DNA of 5,116 nucleotides from Oscillospiraceae bacterium (GTDB lineage Bacteria > Bacillota_A > Clostridia > Oscillospirales > Oscillospiraceae), in NCBI GenBank assembly GCA_017455225.1, contig JAFTBL010000239.1, positions 1 through 5,116 of the forward strand. The letters run 5' to 3'. This document shows positions 1 through 5,116 of this stretch, in pieces. Each line of letters starts with the position of its first letter. The first letter of the stretch is position 1. A program made the position numbers and the translations under genes. The notes under the pieces are model-generated. The model did no database searches, had not been told where the DNA came from, and saw only the letters and a list, made by a program, of their open reading frames with translations.

Positions 1-1284
1 GCCGGCCACGCTGCCGATGTAGGCAAACACGCCGCTGCCGTCGCCCATTTTCACCTGGAAGCCGCCGGCGTTGACCACCTTGGTCATCAGGCCGGGGTTG
101 AAGCTGTCGCTTTCGCCGTCGTTCACTATCAGGCGCATATCCTCCTCGCCCGCTTCGGGCGCAGGAGCGGTCTTGGAGAAGCCGTTGATGGTCACCTGGT
201 TGGCGTTCACCAGTTGCCCCAGCGCAGCGCCATAATTCTTCGGTTCAGCGGTAATCGCTGCCTGCGCCTCAGCCACAGCGGCCTTGTTGGTAGCCAGCGC
301 GGTCAACTCGCTGGACAACAGCGGGGTGCCGGACAGGCCGGCCGCGGTGGCATAGTCGGAAATAGCGCTAACAGCAGCATCAGCGTTGGCTGCGCTATCG
401 ATCGCGGCGACGGCCGCCGTGTAAGCAGCCGGATCGGCGATCTTGCTCACCGCAACCTTCAGCAGCGCCTTATAGGCGGCGTCAATGTTGCCCAGCGCGG
501 TATTGGCCGCCGCGACCAGGTTTTCAACCGCGGTCGCCTGCGTCGTGCTCAGTTCCTGATTCTGGGCCTGTGCCGTCAGGGCGCTGGAGAGCTCGCTGCC
601 GTTGGCGGCCAGCGCATTGCTCATGCCCACGCGGGCGGCGTTCAGCTTGCTGTTGTACTCGCTGCGGTGGGTAATGGCGCCCGTCTGCTGGGCAGACAGG
701 TTGTCGTTGGAGCCGACAGCGCGCACGCCGTACGTCAGCCGCTCACCGTTGTATGCCCAGCCGTTTTCGCTGTAGCTGCCGGAGGCATAGGTGGTGCCAT
801 CCACCGTGGCGACGCGGCCGTCCGCGCCGTACACAGCGGTCCTCAGCAGGTTGGCAGCTACGACCTTGGTCGTGTCGTTCGGCATGAAGTTCAGGCGGGC
901 GGGCATCAGCTTGATGGTCTGCAGGCCGTAAGTGCTGTCGCTCAGATCCACCAGGTTGCCCCAGGTGAGGTTGGCCTTAGTGACCACCTGCTCAGCGGAA
1001 CTGTCACCCACGGCGGAAGAGATCTTGCTCAGATCCGCATAGGTGCCGCCATCCGTCCAGTTGTTTTCGCCGTCCTCCTGCCAATCGCTGTTCAGAAGGG
1101 CGATCTCCAGGTTGCCGTTTGCGCCTACGCTGGTGCTGATGCCGGTGATTTCCGGCGCCGTAGACAGTGTGAACCACGCGTACGTGGAGGACACCACCAT
1201 GATCGACGCCACCAACAGCATCGCCACGGCGCCCATCAGCTTTTTGCGGACGCCGCCATAGGACTTCGTCTGTTCTTTCGTCAT
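1..1284 (-). CDS. SipW-class signal surface protein, Ala-rich (3' end beyond window)
   Basis: The frame opens with ATG at 1284 and stays open to base 1, giving 428 visible residues; the C-terminus lies outside the window. AAGGAG sits 7 nt before the ATG and fixes the start. A basic stretch (R13-K15) and a hydrophobic helix (about 16-33) lead into S33-T-Y-A-W-F38, the form seen in SipW-dependent signal peptides of TasA-like proteins. The next part (S41-TAPEITG, then VGANGNLEIAL at 53-63) resembles a family of clostridial surface proteins that I recall but cannot name. Residues 64-190 look like a beta-rich globular domain. Residues about 195-345 are Ala/Asn/Ser-rich, low in Pro and probably helical or coiled coil, and residues 360-428 look beta-rich again. 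The likely role is an exported fibre, matrix or wall protein processed by a SipW-type peptidase, which is not encoded in the window. The function is inferred; the signal segment is the firm part. Confidence 0.85.
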   Translation of the reverse strand, partial: MTKEQTKSYGGVRKKLMGAVAMLLVASIMVVSSTYAWFTLSTAPEITGISTSVGANGNLEIALLNSDWQEDGENNWTDGGTYADLSKISSAVGDSSAEQVVTKANLTWGNLVDLSDSTYGLQTIKLMPARLNFMPNDTTKVVAANLLRTAVYGADGRVATVDGTTYASGSYSENGWAYNGERLTYGVRAVGSNDNLSAQQTGAITHRSEYNSKLNAARVGMSNALAANGSELSSALTAQAQNQELSTTQATAVENLVAAANTALGNIDAAYKALLKVAVSKIADPAAYTAAVAAIDSAANADAAVSAISDYATAAGLSGTPLLSSELTALATNKAAVAEAQAAITAEPKNYGAALGQLVNANQVTINGFSKTAPAPEAGEEDMRLIVNDGESDSFNPGLMTKVVNAGGFQVKMGDGSGVFAYIGSVAG

Positions 1285-1291
1285 CGTCTTT

Positions 1292-1297
1292 CTCCTT
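1292..1297 (-). promoter_or_regulatory. Ribosome binding site of the SipW-class surface protein gene
   Basis: AAGGAG on the minus strand, 7 nt from the ATG at 1284. It is a strong Shine-Dalgarno match and supports that start over later in-frame codons. Confidence 0.85.
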
Positions 1298-1304
1298 TCG
1301 AGTT

Positions 1305-1329
1305 CTGCGTGTTTTACCTCCCGCCGGAG
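1305..1329. repeat. 25-bp direct repeat, copy next to the surface gene start
   Basis: The 25 bases at 1305-1329 are identical to those at 1532-1556, in the same orientation and 227 bp apart. The shared core contains CCTCCCGCCGGAG. On the transcribed (minus) strand this gives a GGGAGGT that looks like a ribosome binding site but has no start codon after it. This copy lies just upstream of the true binding site at 1292-1297. Confidence 0.8.
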
Positions 1330-1445
1330 ATCGTTGTGGTTCCTCACGTCCTCGGTCTGCGCCGCAAGCGGCATTGAAGGGTCGTTGCCCGTGGCGCTCC
1401 ATAGAGAACGGGCCTGCCCGCACCTGACTTCGGGTGTTGGCGAGC

Positions 1446-1476
1446 CCGTAGGAACGGGCACACCCATTCCCTACGG
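1446..1476 (-). other. Strong hairpin, 13 bp with one bulge
   Basis: On the minus strand CCGTAGG pairs with CCTACGG, one G is bulged, and AATGGG then pairs with CCCGTT (one T-G pair) around a TGTG loop. No U-tract follows, so it is not an intrinsic terminator. It may be part of a leader RNA or the core of a palindromic intergenic repeat. Confidence 0.7.
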
Positions 1477-1508
1477 CAACGCCATCATCCGCCGCCCACT
1501 GTGCAGCA

Positions 1509-1520
1509 GGGCCGAAGCCC
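1509..1520 (-). other. Small hairpin with UUCG tetraloop
   Basis: On the minus strand GGGC-TTCG-GCCC forms a 4-bp stem closed by C-G over UUCG, a known extra-stable RNA loop. On the plus strand the loop would be CGAA, without that special stability. This suggests the minus strand is the structured transcript. Confidence 0.55.
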
Positions 1521-1531
1521 GTGAGGTTTGC

Positions 1532-1556
1532 CTGCGTGTTTTACCTCCCGCCGGAG
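1532..1556. repeat. 25-bp direct repeat, distal copy with perfect dyad
   Basis: This is the second identical copy of the 25-bp repeat at 1305-1329. Here the flanking bases complete a dyad: TACCTCC (1542-1548), loop CGCC, GGAGGTA (1553-1559). In the other copy the stem is only 4 bp before a mismatch. No T-run follows on either strand, so it does not look like an intrinsic terminator. Confidence 0.8.
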
Positions 1557-1617
1557 GTATGTAAACGGCAGAGATGGCTGCCGCTGCATACCGAAATCGT
1601 CTTGCGCCGTGGGTGGA

Positions 1618-2787
1618 TCAGTCCGTGTTCCACCACAGCAGATCGCCCAAAAAGCGATCAAGCCACGTTTCCTGCTCCTCTTCCTGCTCCTCGCCCAGCA
1701 GGCGGATGCTCATCTCCATCCCCAGATGGCCGCCGATCAGGTCGTCCGTGCACTGGGGATCGTCCCCCTCCAGCCACATGAGCACAGTGTACTTGTGTAC
1801 CTCATCCGGCAAAACGCCGGTCTGTGTGCCGCTGGCCAGCGTGACGGGGGACTCGAACATGTAGGGGATCACGCGGTAATATGCCACCTCGCCCGCCTGG
1901 CGCAGCAATTCGAACTGCTCCGCGTCCTCCATAAATTCCAGCAGTCCGGGATTGGGGTATCCGCGGCGGGTATCGTCCCGGCCGGGCAGCGCTTCCTCCC
2001 CGCCGGAGGCGGACTCCTCGGCAAAGATGCGACCCGCGCCGTCTTCAAACACGATGACCCACGCGGCGCTGCTCACGTCCTTGCTTTCGGAATTGAAATT
2101 GATGCTCCACTCGTAGCTGACCGTTCGGTCGCCCTCGTTGCGCACGTAGAAGGTATAGGCAAAATAGTCGCCGTTGTGGGAGCCGTCCGTCTGATCCACC
2201 GTGACGGGAATGTCGCTGATGGACACGCAGGGGATGTTCTCCGCCGGGGCGCTGAAAAGATGGGTGGTGGGCTGGGCAAAATCCTCCGTTTCGCTGAGGA
2301 CAAAACCGGCCTCAAACAAACTCTCCGACATGTTGACGGTAAAGTGTCCGCGCATCTGCACCGCCCACGAGAGCACCGCCAGCAAAAACATCAGCAGCAG
2401 CGCCGCGCCCAGCAGAGCCAGCAGACCCTTCCCGTGGAAAAACCATGTGAAAAACGCAAACGGCCTGCGCTTGTCAAAATAGAGACCCAGACTGGACGCC
2501 AGCAGCTCGAACTCTTTTTTGGTGTAGATCCGCTGCGCGCGCATCTCGGCGCGCAGTTTTTTGCGCCCGTCCTTGATCTCCTGCACCTCGGTGCGCGTCA
2601 GCTCCGTGTTGGCACGGGTGCGCTTGAACAGCCGGCGCTGCCGCTCCTCCGGCGGGATCTCCCGCTTTACAGAGGCCGCCGGGGGCGCCTTCACGTCCGG
2701 TCTGGCCTTGCGGCGGGGCGAGGGGTCAGACGGCGCTGCCGCCTCTTTTTTGATCTCGTCCGGTATATGATCGTATGGCGTTGCCAT
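1618..2787 (-). CDS. Membrane protein with basic cytoplasmic N-terminus and TasA/camelysin-like ectodomain
   Basis: The protein has 389 residues, an ATG start and a TGA stop. GGGAGGA lies 7 nt before the ATG. Residues 1-40 are Pro/Ala-rich and residues 41-90 are strongly basic (many Arg and Lys), probably helical and cytoplasmic. One membrane helix spans about 119-144, giving an N-in, C-out topology with no cleavable signal. The ectodomain (145-365) holds short motifs that I associate with TasA/camelysin-type beta domains: a 'GDYFAYTFYVRNEG' strand pair at 206-219 and 'WLEGDDPQCTDDLIGG' at 338-353. Cys187 and Cys346 could form a disulfide. The tail (366-389) is acidic and then Trp-rich. It lies 71 bp after the degenerate HD-GYP/EAL gene, likely in the same operon. 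A plausible role is anchor, assembly or accessory factor for a surface fibre whose cytoplasmic tail can receive a signal. The family match is from memory of motifs, so the function is tentative; the gene and topology are firm. Confidence 0.88.
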   Translation of the reverse strand: MATPYDHIPDEIKKEAAAPSDPSPRRKARPDVKAPPAASVKREIPPEERQRRLFKRTRANTELTRTEVQEIKDGRKKLRAEMRAQRIYTKKEFELLASSLGLYFDKRRPFAFFTWFFHGKGLLALLGAALLLMFLLAVLSWAVQMRGHFTVNMSESLFEAGFVLSETEDFAQPTTHLFSAPAENIPCVSISDIPVTVDQTDGSHNGDYFAYTFYVRNEGDRTVSYEWSINFNSESKDVSSAAWVIVFEDGAGRIFAEESASGGEEALPGRDDTRRGYPNPGLLEFMEDAEQFELLRQAGEVAYYRVIPYMFESPVTLASGTQTGVLPDEVHKYTVLMWLEGDDPQCTDDLIGGHLGMEMSIRLLGEEQEEEQETWLDRFLGDLLWWNTD

Positions 2788-2858: not shown

Positions 2859-4325
2859 TCAGTTCCCCCGCTCCCGCAGCAAACAATCGCGGATCATCTC
2901 ATCTTCCTCTACCGCCACGCCCACCGCCGGGCCGCTGGCGGCATATACGCCGCAGTCACTGAGCCAGCGGGCGGTGCCTTCGCTGTCCACCTCGCCGCCC
3001 AGCAGCGTGAAGTCCTCCTGGCGCAGCCGCTTCATCAGTTCCGCCGTGTCCTGCTGCAGGTACAGCTTGGACTTGCAGCGGATGTGGCTGATGCCCACGG
3101 CTTTTACGTCGTCCGCCGGGCAGAGAGACGGCTCGTATCCGTCCAGCACCAGCGTCACGCCGTTGCGCGCATAGCGGGCGATCGTCTCGCGCACGCCCTT
3201 GCCCGCCATGGCAAAGGTGAGCGCGTCCACTGTCAAATACAGCTTGCTCTTGTCCACGGGCTGGTCTTCAAACAGCTCCGCAAACCGCTTGAGCTGGCTG
3301 GGCGCGCGATAGAATTCCGGCAGCATGGGAAGCAGGATCCCCTGCGCGGCCAAACGGCAGTTCTGCATCCGCAGCAGCGCATCCGCCGCCTCATACAGCA
3401 GGTAAAAACTTACGTCCACCGTCAATTCGGTGCGGCGCAGCAGGTCTGCCGCCGCTGACAGCGGCTCTGTCGCTCCGTCCCTGCCGGCAATGCCGCCGAT
3501 CCACGGCTCCGCCTCATACAGCAGCACCTTGCCGCTGCGCCCGTCCGCCATGGGGCGGTACCGCAAGCCCATGGGGCGACTCTTTCGCTTTTCCACCAGC
3601 GGAATGGTCTTGGGCAGCGTGAGAGAATAGTGAATGTACTTGTTGTACACGCTTCGGCATTTGCCGCGGCAGTTTTTCAGCACCCGGATCAGCGCCGGGT
3701 TCCAGTCGGCGTCCTCGCCGGCATAAATGGCGTCCAGCGCCTCTGTAAACGGATCTTCCGACTTGGTTTCCGCCGCCAGATGGTCCAGTTCCTTGGCCAG
3801 CCCCACGATTTGGGCGATGGGGCTGATGGCGCTGCCCTTGCGGCCCTCCGGAAAGCCGCTGCCGTTCCAGCGCTCCATGTGCTGCAGGCAGCTCTCCCGC
3901 TGCATGCGCCACGGCACGTTGGTCGTTTCCGGCTCCGGCGCGGACAGGCCGCGCTTCTCCCGGTCATAGGCGTTGCTCTCCTGCAAGGCGGCGATCAGAT
4001 CGCAGCCGTCGGTGGTGTACTTGCGGTACACCGCCCGCTCCTCCTCGGTGAAATCGTCGCGCCACAGCTGATATTCCGGCGGGACAAGCGCTTTGCCCAA
4101 CTGGTGATACATGCCGCACTTGTACGCCAGATCGGCATAGCGGCCCTGCATCTGCGACTCGCCCGCGCTCGTTCCGGCGCAGAAGCCGTCCTCGCAGGCC
4201 TGCAAAAACAGCACCCGCGTATACGCCGCCACACGCACCGATTGCTGGCGCACCACCGGGGCAAGACCGCGAAACGCGTCCTCCCAGCTTTCAAAATATG
4301 TTCGTTTCCAAACCTGTTCCGCCAC
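2859..4325 (-). CDS. Degenerate HD-GYP + EAL protein, probable c-di-GMP-type receptor without catalysis
   Basis: With the GTG start at 4325 the protein has 488 residues and no signal or membrane helix, so it is cytoplasmic. Residues about 20-185 follow the HD-GYP pattern. The first His is Gln28 (QSVRVAAY), HD is His74-Gln75 with Lys78 kept (HQLGK), and the next His is Tyr103. HHExxDGxGYP has become HMERWNGSGFP (149-159), and the late vaD Asp is Lys178. Residues about 255-478 follow an EAL domain. The EAL motif is YEAE (270-273) with its Glu kept, and DDFG is LDGYEPS (394-400). The lKiD Lys and Asp are Arg416 and Lys418, and AEGVE is GGEVD (443-447). Intact versions of both domains hydrolyse c-di-GMP. 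Loss of most metal ligands in both argues for binding or scaffolding instead. The gene sits between two membrane-protein genes, 39 bp after one and 71 bp before the other. A further in-frame GTG at 4367 overlaps the previous stop but lacks a binding site. The domain calls are by motif alignment by eye. Confidence 0.85.
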   Translation of the reverse strand: MAEQVWKRTYFESWEDAFRGLAPVVRQQSVRVAAYTRVLFLQACEDGFCAGTSAGESQMQGRYADLAYKCGMYHQLGKALVPPEYQLWRDDFTEEERAVYRKYTTDGCDLIAALQESNAYDREKRGLSAPEPETTNVPWRMQRESCLQHMERWNGSGFPEGRKGSAISPIAQIVGLAKELDHLAAETKSEDPFTEALDAIYAGEDADWNPALIRVLKNCRGKCRSVYNKYIHYSLTLPKTIPLVEKRKSRPMGLRYRPMADGRSGKVLLYEAEPWIGGIAGRDGATEPLSAAADLLRRTELTVDVSFYLLYEAADALLRMQNCRLAAQGILLPMLPEFYRAPSQLKRFAELFEDQPVDKSKLYLTVDALTFAMAGKGVRETIARYARNGVTLVLDGYEPSLCPADDVKAVGISHIRCKSKLYLQQDTAELMKRLRQEDFTLLGGEVDSEGTARWLSDCGVYAASGPAVGVAVEEDEMIRDCLLRERGN

Positions 4326-4334
4326 CGTTTTCTG

Positions 4335-4340
4335 CTCCTT
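4335..4340 (-). promoter_or_regulatory. Ribosome binding site that decides the HD-GYP/EAL start
   Basis: AAGGAG on the minus strand lies 9 nt before the GTG at 4325. The earlier GTG at 4367, which would overlap the upstream TGA as GTGA, has only a GACGACGACGC stretch before it and would add 14 unremarkable residues. The later start is therefore preferred, though coupling through the overlap cannot be excluded. Confidence 0.65.
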
Positions 4341-4363: not shown

Positions 4364-5116
4364 TCACGCGTCGTCGTCAATGTCATAATCCACCAGCGGG
4401 GTGGAATCCTGCTCCCGCCGGATGCGGCCCTTGGCCACCACTACGATCACCACCAGGCACACCACGTTGACGGTGAGGCTGACGATGAACAGGACGGGCC
4501 ACAGGTCGTGGGACTTGACGTTGCAGTAGTCGGTCCCCTGTCCTTCCAGCAGGCGCGACGTCAAATTGTTCAACTGCTCCACCTGCGCATCCACCGTCGT
4601 CTGATCGGCGCCGGTCTCCATCAGCGCGTTGCCTGCGTTCAGCGCGTCAAACAGCGCGATCCACAAACGGGGCTGGCTGAGACTGAACTCCTCGTTTTCT
4701 CCCAGCGCCCGCGCACGCGCCAGCGCGGAAATCAAATCGGTATACTGCACCGCCGTCAGCTTTTCAATGGCCTCGTTCAGTGCCTTTACCGCCTCGTTGA
4801 TCTCGTTTTGATCCTTGCTTTCCAGCTTCTCTCTGGCGCTTTCCACCTGGGACTGCAGCGTTCGCCACTGGGCGGTGGGATACTGGTCTCCGTCCAGCGC
4901 CTCCGCCTCCTTGATCTTGGCGTTCAGCGCAGCGGTGTCGATCTTCGGCTCCTCCGTCACCACCGGGTCCACCGGCTCCGAAACGGTACTGCCGCCTCCA
5001 CTGGAGCCGCCGCTGCCGCCGGAACCGCCGCCGGAACTGCCGCCTCCACCGGAGCCGCCACTGCCGCCGGAACTGCCACCTCCACCGGAGCCGCCGCTGC
5101 CGCCGGAACCGCCGCC
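4364..5116 (-). CDS. C-terminal part of a FIVAR-type surface protein with Gly/Ser linker and membrane anchor (5' end beyond window)
   Basis: The frame is open at base 5116 and ends with TGA at 4366-4364; 250 residues are visible. The GTG at 4972 is internal, because the frame continues upstream without a stop. Visible residues 1-43 are only Gly and Ser and form a flexible linker. Two helical modules follow, at about 59-122 and 125-191. They fit the FIVAR pattern, with a Trp or Tyr-x-x-x-Trp start (YPTAQW, then LSQPRLW), a mid 'DQ-x-x-V/I' and a closing 'L..AI.KL'-like helix. FIVAR modules are common spacers in Gram-positive surface proteins. A membrane helix (about 204-228) is followed by KGRIRR and an acidic tail ending DYDIDDDA, so the C-terminus is cytoplasmic. 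There is no LPXTG sortase motif. The missing N-terminal part probably carries the ligand-binding or fibre domains. The tail and the downstream cytoplasmic gene suggest a link across the membrane, which is inference. Confidence 0.87.
   Translation of the reverse strand, partial: GGGSGGSGGSGGGGSSGGSGGSGGGGSSGGGSGGSGGSSGGGSTVSEPVDPVVTEEPKIDTAALNAKIKEAEALDGDQYPTAQWRTLQSQVESAREKLESKDQNEINEAVKALNEAIEKLTAVQYTDLISALARARALGENEEFSLSQPRLWIALFDALNAGNALMETGADQTTVDAQVEQLNNLTSRLLEGQGTDYCNVKSHDLWPVLFIVSLTVNVVCLVVIVVVAKGRIRREQDSTPLVDYDIDDDA
4988..5116 (-). repeat. Tandem 36-bp coding repeat (Gly/Ser linker), continues beyond window
   Basis: Three 36-bp units, each 12 codons encoding SGGSGGSGGGGS or a close variant, lie at 5072-5107, 5036-5071 and 4988-5023. 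A 12-bp unit (TCCGGCGGCGGT) sits between the last two (5024-5035), and part of another lies at 5108-5116. The first two units differ at two third-codon positions, and the last has one Gly-to-Ser change. Near identity at the DNA level suggests recent expansion by slippage or unequal recombination, so length may vary among strains. Confidence 0.9.

Follow-up and report, generated by a model that had tools for sequence, protein, structure and literature searches.

A conserved protein joining degenerate HD-GYP and EAL domains in a CoCoPALM-like surface-protein operon of Oscillospiraceae and other bacteria

The window, the 5,116-nucleotide stretch of Oscillospiraceae DNA that was analysed, encodes a soluble protein in which a degenerate HD-GYP domain and a degenerate EAL domain are joined. 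We propose, with a probability of about 0.6, that this double pseudoenzyme works on the cytosolic side of a CoCoPALM-type surface-fibre system, as an adaptor or as a subunit that controls assembly; both the fibres and the adaptor role are putative and are deduced here from the genes. The proposal draws on fold matches, a fixed place in the operon ahead of the gene for a basic-tailed membrane protein, pseudo-EAL proteins at the same position in related operons, c-di-GMP riboswitches in some of those operons, invariance within the family, purifying selection, the scarcity of GGDEF among carriers and a single HD-EAL clade on the tree of AAA proteins, and the presence of GGDEF in 11 of 53 carriers counts against it. 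No earlier description of a dead HD-GYP domain joined to a dead EAL domain came up in searches of open-access PMC text.

Domains of the fusion protein

The gene and its two domains are located as follows:
2859–4325, minus strand: predicted HD-GYP/EAL double pseudoenzyme gene, 488 aa, GTG start, with AAGGAG at 4335–4340
3621–4163, minus strand: degenerate HD-GYP domain, about residues 55–235; H74, K78 and H149 kept; Q75, Y103, M150 and K178 at PmGH metal-ligand positions
2871–3587, minus strand: degenerate EAL domain, about residues 247–485; E271 and D395 kept; W275, G396, R416, G443 and S464 at lost catalytic or binding positions

Profile searches matched both domains in the 488-aa protein, and the HD-GYP fold and the EAL (TIM-barrel) fold both appear, by model, to be retained, although the EAL half of the window protein scored slightly below the Pfam cut-off. 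The nearest sequence matches among solved structures include a 3′3′-cGAMP-specific HD-GYP phosphodiesterase. The Pfam search assigned the HD part to HD_5/HD-GYP and gave no HDOD match at E≤1 in the window protein.

The active sites are a different matter. PmGH has eight metal ligands, and single mutation of any of them except E185 and D305 abolished its activity (PMC4159591). Alignment of the family profile with PmGH (4mcw) places H74 at H221, Q75 at D222, Y103 at H250, H149 at H276, M150 at H277 and K178 at D305; at least four of the eight ligands are therefore replaced, while H221 and H276 are retained. H189 would correspond to Q28, judging from the motif, with E185 falling outside the alignment. 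The HD-GYP half thus lacks the metal-ligand set of the phosphodiesterases, and the EAL half likewise lacks the catalytic set E, N, E, D, D, K, E, Q. Among 54 proteins, the first E of the EAL set is present in 54 and the first D in 52, but the second D in 11; the Lys site is Arg in 52, and the Gln of QGY is never Gln (0/54). The Glu of EGVE is replaced in most members, and Trp stands in for the ExLxR Arg in 53 of the 54 proteins, with Tyr in the other. Judged by these residues, both domains are almost certainly catalytically dead.

A conserved family under purifying selection

The HD-GYP/EAL fusion is a conserved family. Of 7,997 proteins scored, 875 were homologues at E≤1e-3, and both Pfam domains were present in 119 of the 120 homologues listed, the other (P0065) having only HD_5. 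The gene was located on genome contigs at 53 loci, in Oscillospiraceae, Clostridia, Clostridiales and a few other hosts, many of them from the ruminant gut. Within the order of genome G004, 9 of 394 genomes carry the complete protein, and a broad gap in E-value (8e-196 to 2e-15) separates them from the next match. An open frame is found at the same place in 54 loci, of 411–523 aa as called, with L030 cut by the contig end. A misassembly or chance fusion was rejected in view of the 53 genomes and of the two domains in 119 of the 120 listed homologues.

The striking point is that the replacement residues are themselves nearly invariant, beyond the loss of the original ones. Residues were counted in 174 sequences, namely the 53 genome loci, the window and the 120 listed homologues, one of which is 99% identical to the window protein. 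In the HD-GYP half, H74, Q75, K78, Y103 and E151 are found in all 174, H149 in 173, M150 in 172 and K178 in 159; in the EAL half, E271 is found in 174, W275 in 173 and R416 in 172. As the 53 loci were found with the patterns YHQLGKAL and EExAVY[RK]KY (residues 73–80 and 95–103), the counts of H74, Q75, K78 and Y103 are biased in those loci, whereas the 120 proteins were chosen otherwise. An alignment of the window protein with 21 homologues 56–70% identical to it has 122 invariant columns.

Comparison of coding sequences revealed purifying selection. The reading rests on four pairs with dS 0.16–0.69, in which omega was 0.081, 0.054, 0.206 and 0.103, the L001/L004 pair being too close for this use. 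Omega was 0.16–0.61 in nine further pairs with dS 0.73–0.87, values of dS that may well be underestimates in this high-GC DNA, and was below 1 in all 14 pairs listed.

Organisation of the operon

The neighbouring genes in the window are:
4364–5116, minus strand: upstream gene, with its 5′ end beyond the window; encodes a FIVAR domain, a single hydrophobic segment (by eye) and a short tail, DSTPLVDYDIDDDA
1618–2787, minus strand: downstream gene, here called TM; basic N-tail, one hydrophobic segment (by eye) and a presumed extracellular domain
1–1284, minus strand: TasA-like putative fibre-subunit gene, 3′ end outside the window; signal region VVSSTYAWFTLS

This arrangement recurs across the family. 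A protein with FIVAR and a hydrophobic segment (BLAST label) precedes the fusion gene in 49 of 54 loci, and the pattern of its acidic TPLVDYDI-type tail is found in 46 of the 54 HD-EAL loci versus none of 48 related-operon regions. Wherever the next gene downstream was called (51 loci), it is the TM gene, and in 44 of the 51 its product has an IKxGR motif inside the first 140 aa. The TasA-like proteins, which we take to be such from a signal motif and the SipW context, were supported by no Pfam or NCBIfam model. A Gly/Ser-rich repeat with units of 9 to 48 bases occupies 4984–5116 of the window, within the upstream surface-protein gene, and a consensus scan of the window found no sigma-70-like promoter.

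Loci on long contigs continue beyond TM with large TasA-like proteins (one or two) and a smaller one, followed by a SipW-like signal peptidase and then by AAA_5 and DUF2357 proteins. In the loci inspected, the AAA_5 protein has N-terminal hydrophobic segments, the DUF2357 protein is coiled-coil and a further TasA-like protein comes last; membrane segments and the coiled coil (a Glu/Arg-rich DUF2357 sequence) were judged by eye. A signal-peptidase label adjoins the AAA gene in most HD-EAL loci. In L048 the peptidase matched NF046067 (E 3.2e-29; 101.9 bits, below the cut-off of 190) and TIGR02228 (92.5 bits, above the cut-off of 51.85), and the DUF2357 protein matched PF09823 with 25.4 bits against a cut-off of 23.3; no PF09823 match was found in L036. 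Forty-one AAA proteins were found in the 54 HD-EAL loci, all 41 with Walker A, Walker B and NxDD, and NxD followed by D or E was present in all 53 aligned AAA frames of the related regions. In the genome of L004, whose fusion protein is 70% identical to that of the window, the AAA gene lies some 17 kb downstream, on the contig and strand of the fusion gene, and from this we infer that the window genome shares the full CoCoPALM set. Genes were called with our own codon-score caller, by which some regions (e.g. L135) were miscalled, and the "dock" label on L001 and L004 is wrong.

An earlier note on this DNA had proposed that HD-GYP and EAL folds occur in one chain, that both are apparently catalytically dead, that the fold is under selection and that the gene sits in a surface-protein operon. 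These four claims are supported by the analysis, the second of them at the level of sequence.

Very large proteins (>2,200 aa) are encoded upstream of the operon in L014 (3–8555) and L048 (2191–8850). That of L014 has a dockerin-like C end below threshold (E 0.0014), that of L048 gave no Pfam match, and a cohesin-like label had no Pfam support.

Relation to CoCoPALM

CoCoPALM was named by Bell et al. 2024, with its characterisation deferred to a later paper, and consists of three adjacent proteins: an McrB-like one that has N-terminal hydrophobic segments and an NxD motif, one of the signal-peptidase family, and a coiled-coil McrC homologue with DUF2357 (PMC11090510). In the literature searched, the name is used in this sense only in that paper and its preprint. 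The same three components adjoin in the operon described here: an McrB-like GTPase, again with NxD and a hydrophobic N-terminal part, a partner of the signal-peptidase family and a DUF2357 McrC homologue. An FtsB-like part fused to the GTPase, a CoCoPALM trait, may be represented by the hydrophobic segments at the N end of the AAA protein, seen by eye only. We are confident that the fusion gene belongs to a CoCoPALM-like operon. Unlike CoCoPALM as published, this operon also encodes TasA-like proteins together with either a pseudo-EAL protein or an HD-GYP/EAL fusion, and some lineages have c-di-GMP riboswitches ahead of it; "EAL domain", "GGDEF" and "TasA" do not occur in the main text of PMC11090510.

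Degenerate EAL genes in related operons

The AAA gene was matched in 50 of 394 genomes of the order and in 46 of 391 genomes of the class, weak matches included. Forty-eight regions around it were searched in six frames with HMMs, L135 and L188 being overlapping and L125 and L142 adjoining on one contig. Twenty regions have TM upstream of AAA with room before TM and were counted (L131, with TM at the contig start, was excluded). An EAL-domain gene is the next recognised gene before TM in 15 of them: 13 are stand-alone degenerate EAL genes, one is a second HD-GYP-EAL fusion (L170) and one is intact (L179). None of the 13 stand-alone proteins has the full EAL residue set, and they replace the EAL sites differently from the HD-EAL family. 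Eight of the 13 were checked in Pfam and matched EAL with E 1.1e-48 to 2.5e-15; L135, L171, L172, L189 and L193 were outside this check, and the EAL profile used in the search was built from ten proteins among those it finds. In the L170 fusion both HD-GYP and EAL are degenerate through different substitutions. L179 has two intact EAL proteins with a riboswitch between them and the TM gene, and its EAL genes may thus be a separate unit.

In the remaining five regions, TM is preceded by a TasA-like gene (L123, L124), by the signal peptidase (L128, L129) or by nothing recognised adjacent (L174, where an HD-GYP protein that looks intact is encoded another 0.7 kb or so upstream). The pseudo-EAL part is therefore not essential to the wider system. 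Downstream in nine related regions lies a protein of 748–805 aa with a GGDEF-like domain and an EAL domain whose residue set is intact in all nine. Its cyclase part looks degenerate, since GGDEF, GGEEF or the few variants tried occur in none of the nine and the GGDEF score was weak in both proteins checked in Pfam.

In a tree of 55 AAA proteins, in which L135 and L188 represent the same region twice, the 18 HD-EAL carriers sampled form one group with support of 100/100. L123, L124, L128 and L129 form another, the loci with stand-alone EAL genes fall into two further groups, and L170 groups with L131 rather than with the HD-EAL clade. As the tree does not resolve the backbone, both readings stand, that HD-GYP was gained twice or that it was gained once and lost. 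Seven regions (L180, L181, L182, L183, L185, L186 and L196) have a different arrangement, in which paired copies of a shorter AAA variant lie on either side of a DUF2357 gene; neither a signal-peptidase nor a TM gene was matched in these regions.

c-di-GMP riboswitches and GGDEF domains

c-di-GMP appears in the wider history of the system. All 13 stand-alone loci were scanned, and seven have a c-di-GMP-I aptamer just upstream of the degenerate EAL gene, 6 to 117 bases from the first possible EAL start. The riboswitches of the related operons, all situated at the operon start or close to it, are:
L134, 2438–2512: before stand-alone EAL gene
L135, 9329–9406: before stand-alone EAL gene
L139, 7997–8075: before stand-alone EAL gene
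L140, 14627–14706: before stand-alone EAL gene
L172, 10371–10456: before stand-alone EAL gene
L189, 7167–7249: before stand-alone EAL gene
L193, 12465–12650: two in tandem, before stand-alone EAL gene
L179, 8374–8468: before TM gene
L137, 14622–15503: tandem, before TasA-like gene
L141, 14369–14992: tandem, before TasA-like gene

No c-di-GMP riboswitch was found in 15 HD-EAL sources (the window, L116 and 13 more loci, including those of all 11 GGDEF-positive carriers, some of them short), which is partial evidence, as HD-EAL loci often lack the far upstream end of the operon. Ten further regions, six of them with GGDEF-EAL genes (L133, L187, L188, L190, L191 and L192) and several cut upstream, gave no Rfam match. 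Gut-1 RNA (RF01706) was also seen near related operons, with three copies in L141 (3909–6265) and one in L134 (585–660).

Most carrier genomes show no sign of making c-di-GMP. Two sets of carriers, all of them MAGs, gave GGDEF matches in 5 of 20 and in 6 of 33 genomes, and the other 42 of the 53 gave none. In the order as a whole it was matched in 213 of 394 genomes; among non-carriers it was present in 209 of 385 and absent in 176. The difference in absence (42/53 versus 176/385) has a Fisher p of 3.6e-6, in a test that ignores kinship and with carriers that may lie partly outside the sampled order. GGDEF was matched in 19 of 33 related AAA-bearing genomes. As 46 of 50 carriers have DAC, which served as a rough check of completeness, the absence of GGDEF is not mainly due to missing sequence. 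Strong EAL matches (E<1e-50) occur in 9 of 50 carriers, eight of them GGDEF-positive, and the five GGDEF-negative carriers in the order sample gave no second match to the family profile.

LapD and FimX are degenerate EAL receptors, and the Arg of the ExLxR motif has a role in such receptors. The earlier note had read the fusion protein as a LapD- or FimX-like c-di-GMP receptor. GGDEF, which a host of this type would need, is available in the 11 carriers; for most carriers the reading is rejected, with GGDEF absent, strong EAL matches rare and the Arg lost to Trp, and a role as c-di-GMP receptor is probably absent there. The interpretation in that note is thus supported in its folds, sequence-dead sites, selection and surface operon, and unsupported, for most carriers, in its receptor.

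Possible function of the fusion protein

For the adaptor that we favour, an ancestral EAL receptor or enzyme for c-di-GMP would have been converted early into a protein-binding part. In the HD-EAL clade this part would then have been joined to a second dead domain, HD-GYP, and its tie to c-di-GMP lost. The double pseudoenzyme may hold or gate the cytosolic ends of membrane components, candidate contacts being the basic tail of the TM protein and possibly also the TPLVDYDI tail of the protein encoded upstream, and subunit export by the SipW-like peptidase would thereby be coupled with the McrB-like/DUF2357 motor. Some ligand binding could persist, as E271 and, in most members, D395 are kept.

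In a different reading, which we consider unlikely, one or both domains have a rebuilt pocket through which the protein would sense some other nucleotide, for example c-di-AMP, a cGAMP or GTP. The near invariance of Q75, Y103, M150, W275 and R416 fits a rebuilt site, c-di-AMP is probably available given DAC in 46 of 50 carriers, and a 3′3′-cGAMP-specific enzyme is among the nearest solved matches; however, core packing would explain the invariant residues equally well, the EAL sites of the stand-alone relatives have other substitutions, and no EAL domain is known to bind c-di-AMP, a cGAMP or GTP. Less likely again is a true c-di-GMP receptor that controls the fibre operon post-translationally. 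An EAL fold with E271 and D395, related operons with c-di-GMP-I riboswitches and GGDEF-EAL proteins, and GGDEF in 11 of 53 carriers would agree with it, but 42 carriers have no GGDEF match, Trp replaces the ExLxR Arg in 53 of 54 proteins, the QGY Gln is absent from all 54, and the available DNA of the 11 loci from GGDEF-positive carriers contains no riboswitch.

A divergent enzyme of changed chemistry, e.g. with a metal-independent HD domain, is very improbable: H149 is kept in 173 of the 174 sequences and H74, K78, E151 and E271 in all of them, but no fewer than four of the eight metal ligands of PmGH are replaced, single mutation of any of the eight other than E185 and D305 abolished PmGH activity (PMC4159591), and in the EAL half the second Asp survives in 11 of 54, Arg takes the Lys site in 52 and Gln is never found. 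A functionless relic carried along in the operon, to which the lost catalytic residues and the lack of a c-di-GMP synthesis gene in most hosts might point, is hardly credible with omega of 0.05–0.21 in close pairs and below 1 in every pair listed, 122 invariant columns in 22 sequences and an open frame in the same place in 54 loci.

For the CoCoPALM fibre systems of Clostridia as a whole, we tentatively suggest that they are c-di-GMP systems by origin, a possibility to which we give rather less than even odds. The riboswitch would switch the operon on or off, the degenerate EAL of the first gene would be a hard-wired structural part, and the downstream membrane protein with GGDEF-like and EAL domains would reset the signal. 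One clade, Oscillospiraceae and relatives, would have lost the messenger and kept the receptor fold, doubling it with a dead HD-GYP domain into a signal-free control module.

Comparison with known systems

YdiV, which has an EAL fold, has lost 8 of 10 conserved residues, does not bind c-di-GMP and acts by binding FlhD (PMC3510510), is by analogy the clearest precedent for a protein-binding dead EAL domain, and BluF is another. The present protein resembles it in an EAL fold with most catalytic or binding residues lost, and differs in that YdiV has no HD-GYP domain, another host and another partner. The likeness to LapD and FimX lies in a degenerate EAL domain linked to the control of surface adhesins or fibres (for LapD, PMC3032553). 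Unlike them, the HD-GYP/EAL protein has no GGDEF domain or membrane sensor, has lost the ExLxR Arg and occurs mostly in hosts without a GGDEF match.

The EAL-HDOD proteins, such as YuxH, also have an EAL domain and an HD-superfamily domain in one chain. ZpdA and CdgJ are of this kind, and ZpdA is an active phosphodiesterase (PMC12607878). In those proteins EAL is followed by HDOD, whereas here the HD part comes first and both halves are dead by sequence; with the order reversed and HD-GYP in place of HDOD, identity with the YuxH type was rejected.

To our knowledge, the SipW/TasA operons of Bacillus and Clostridium perfringens have no McrB/DUF2357 pair or EAL protein. The operon described here is like them in having a dedicated SipW-like peptidase with secreted fibre-type proteins (PMC9674648, PMC7395162). 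CoCoPALM, so far named but unstudied, gains a concrete setting in putative surface-fibre secretion and assembly, with a link to c-di-GMP in some lineages. The operons also offer a natural experiment on the fate of second-messenger receptor folds after loss of the messenger, in which the same operon position can be compared between lineages with c-di-GMP, a riboswitch and a stand-alone degenerate EAL and those with a doubled pseudoenzyme and neither GGDEF nor riboswitch.

Leader RNA of the TasA-like gene

One more feature was found between TM and the TasA-like gene:
1285–1617, minus strand: leader of the TasA-like gene; a 25-nt element occurs in two identical copies, at 1305–1329 and 1532–1556

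The segment 1290–1617 folds unusually well (z −5.25), and the leader is 75–90% alike, in pieces, in L001 and L004. A scan of the window against Rfam gave nothing at E≤1, and the leader may be a new RNA element. Of the 54 HD-EAL loci, 18 have a short element like CTCCGGCGGGAGRTAAA (≤2 mismatches), and in 13 of these 18 it lies directly before a TasA-like gene, as labelled by the script itself.
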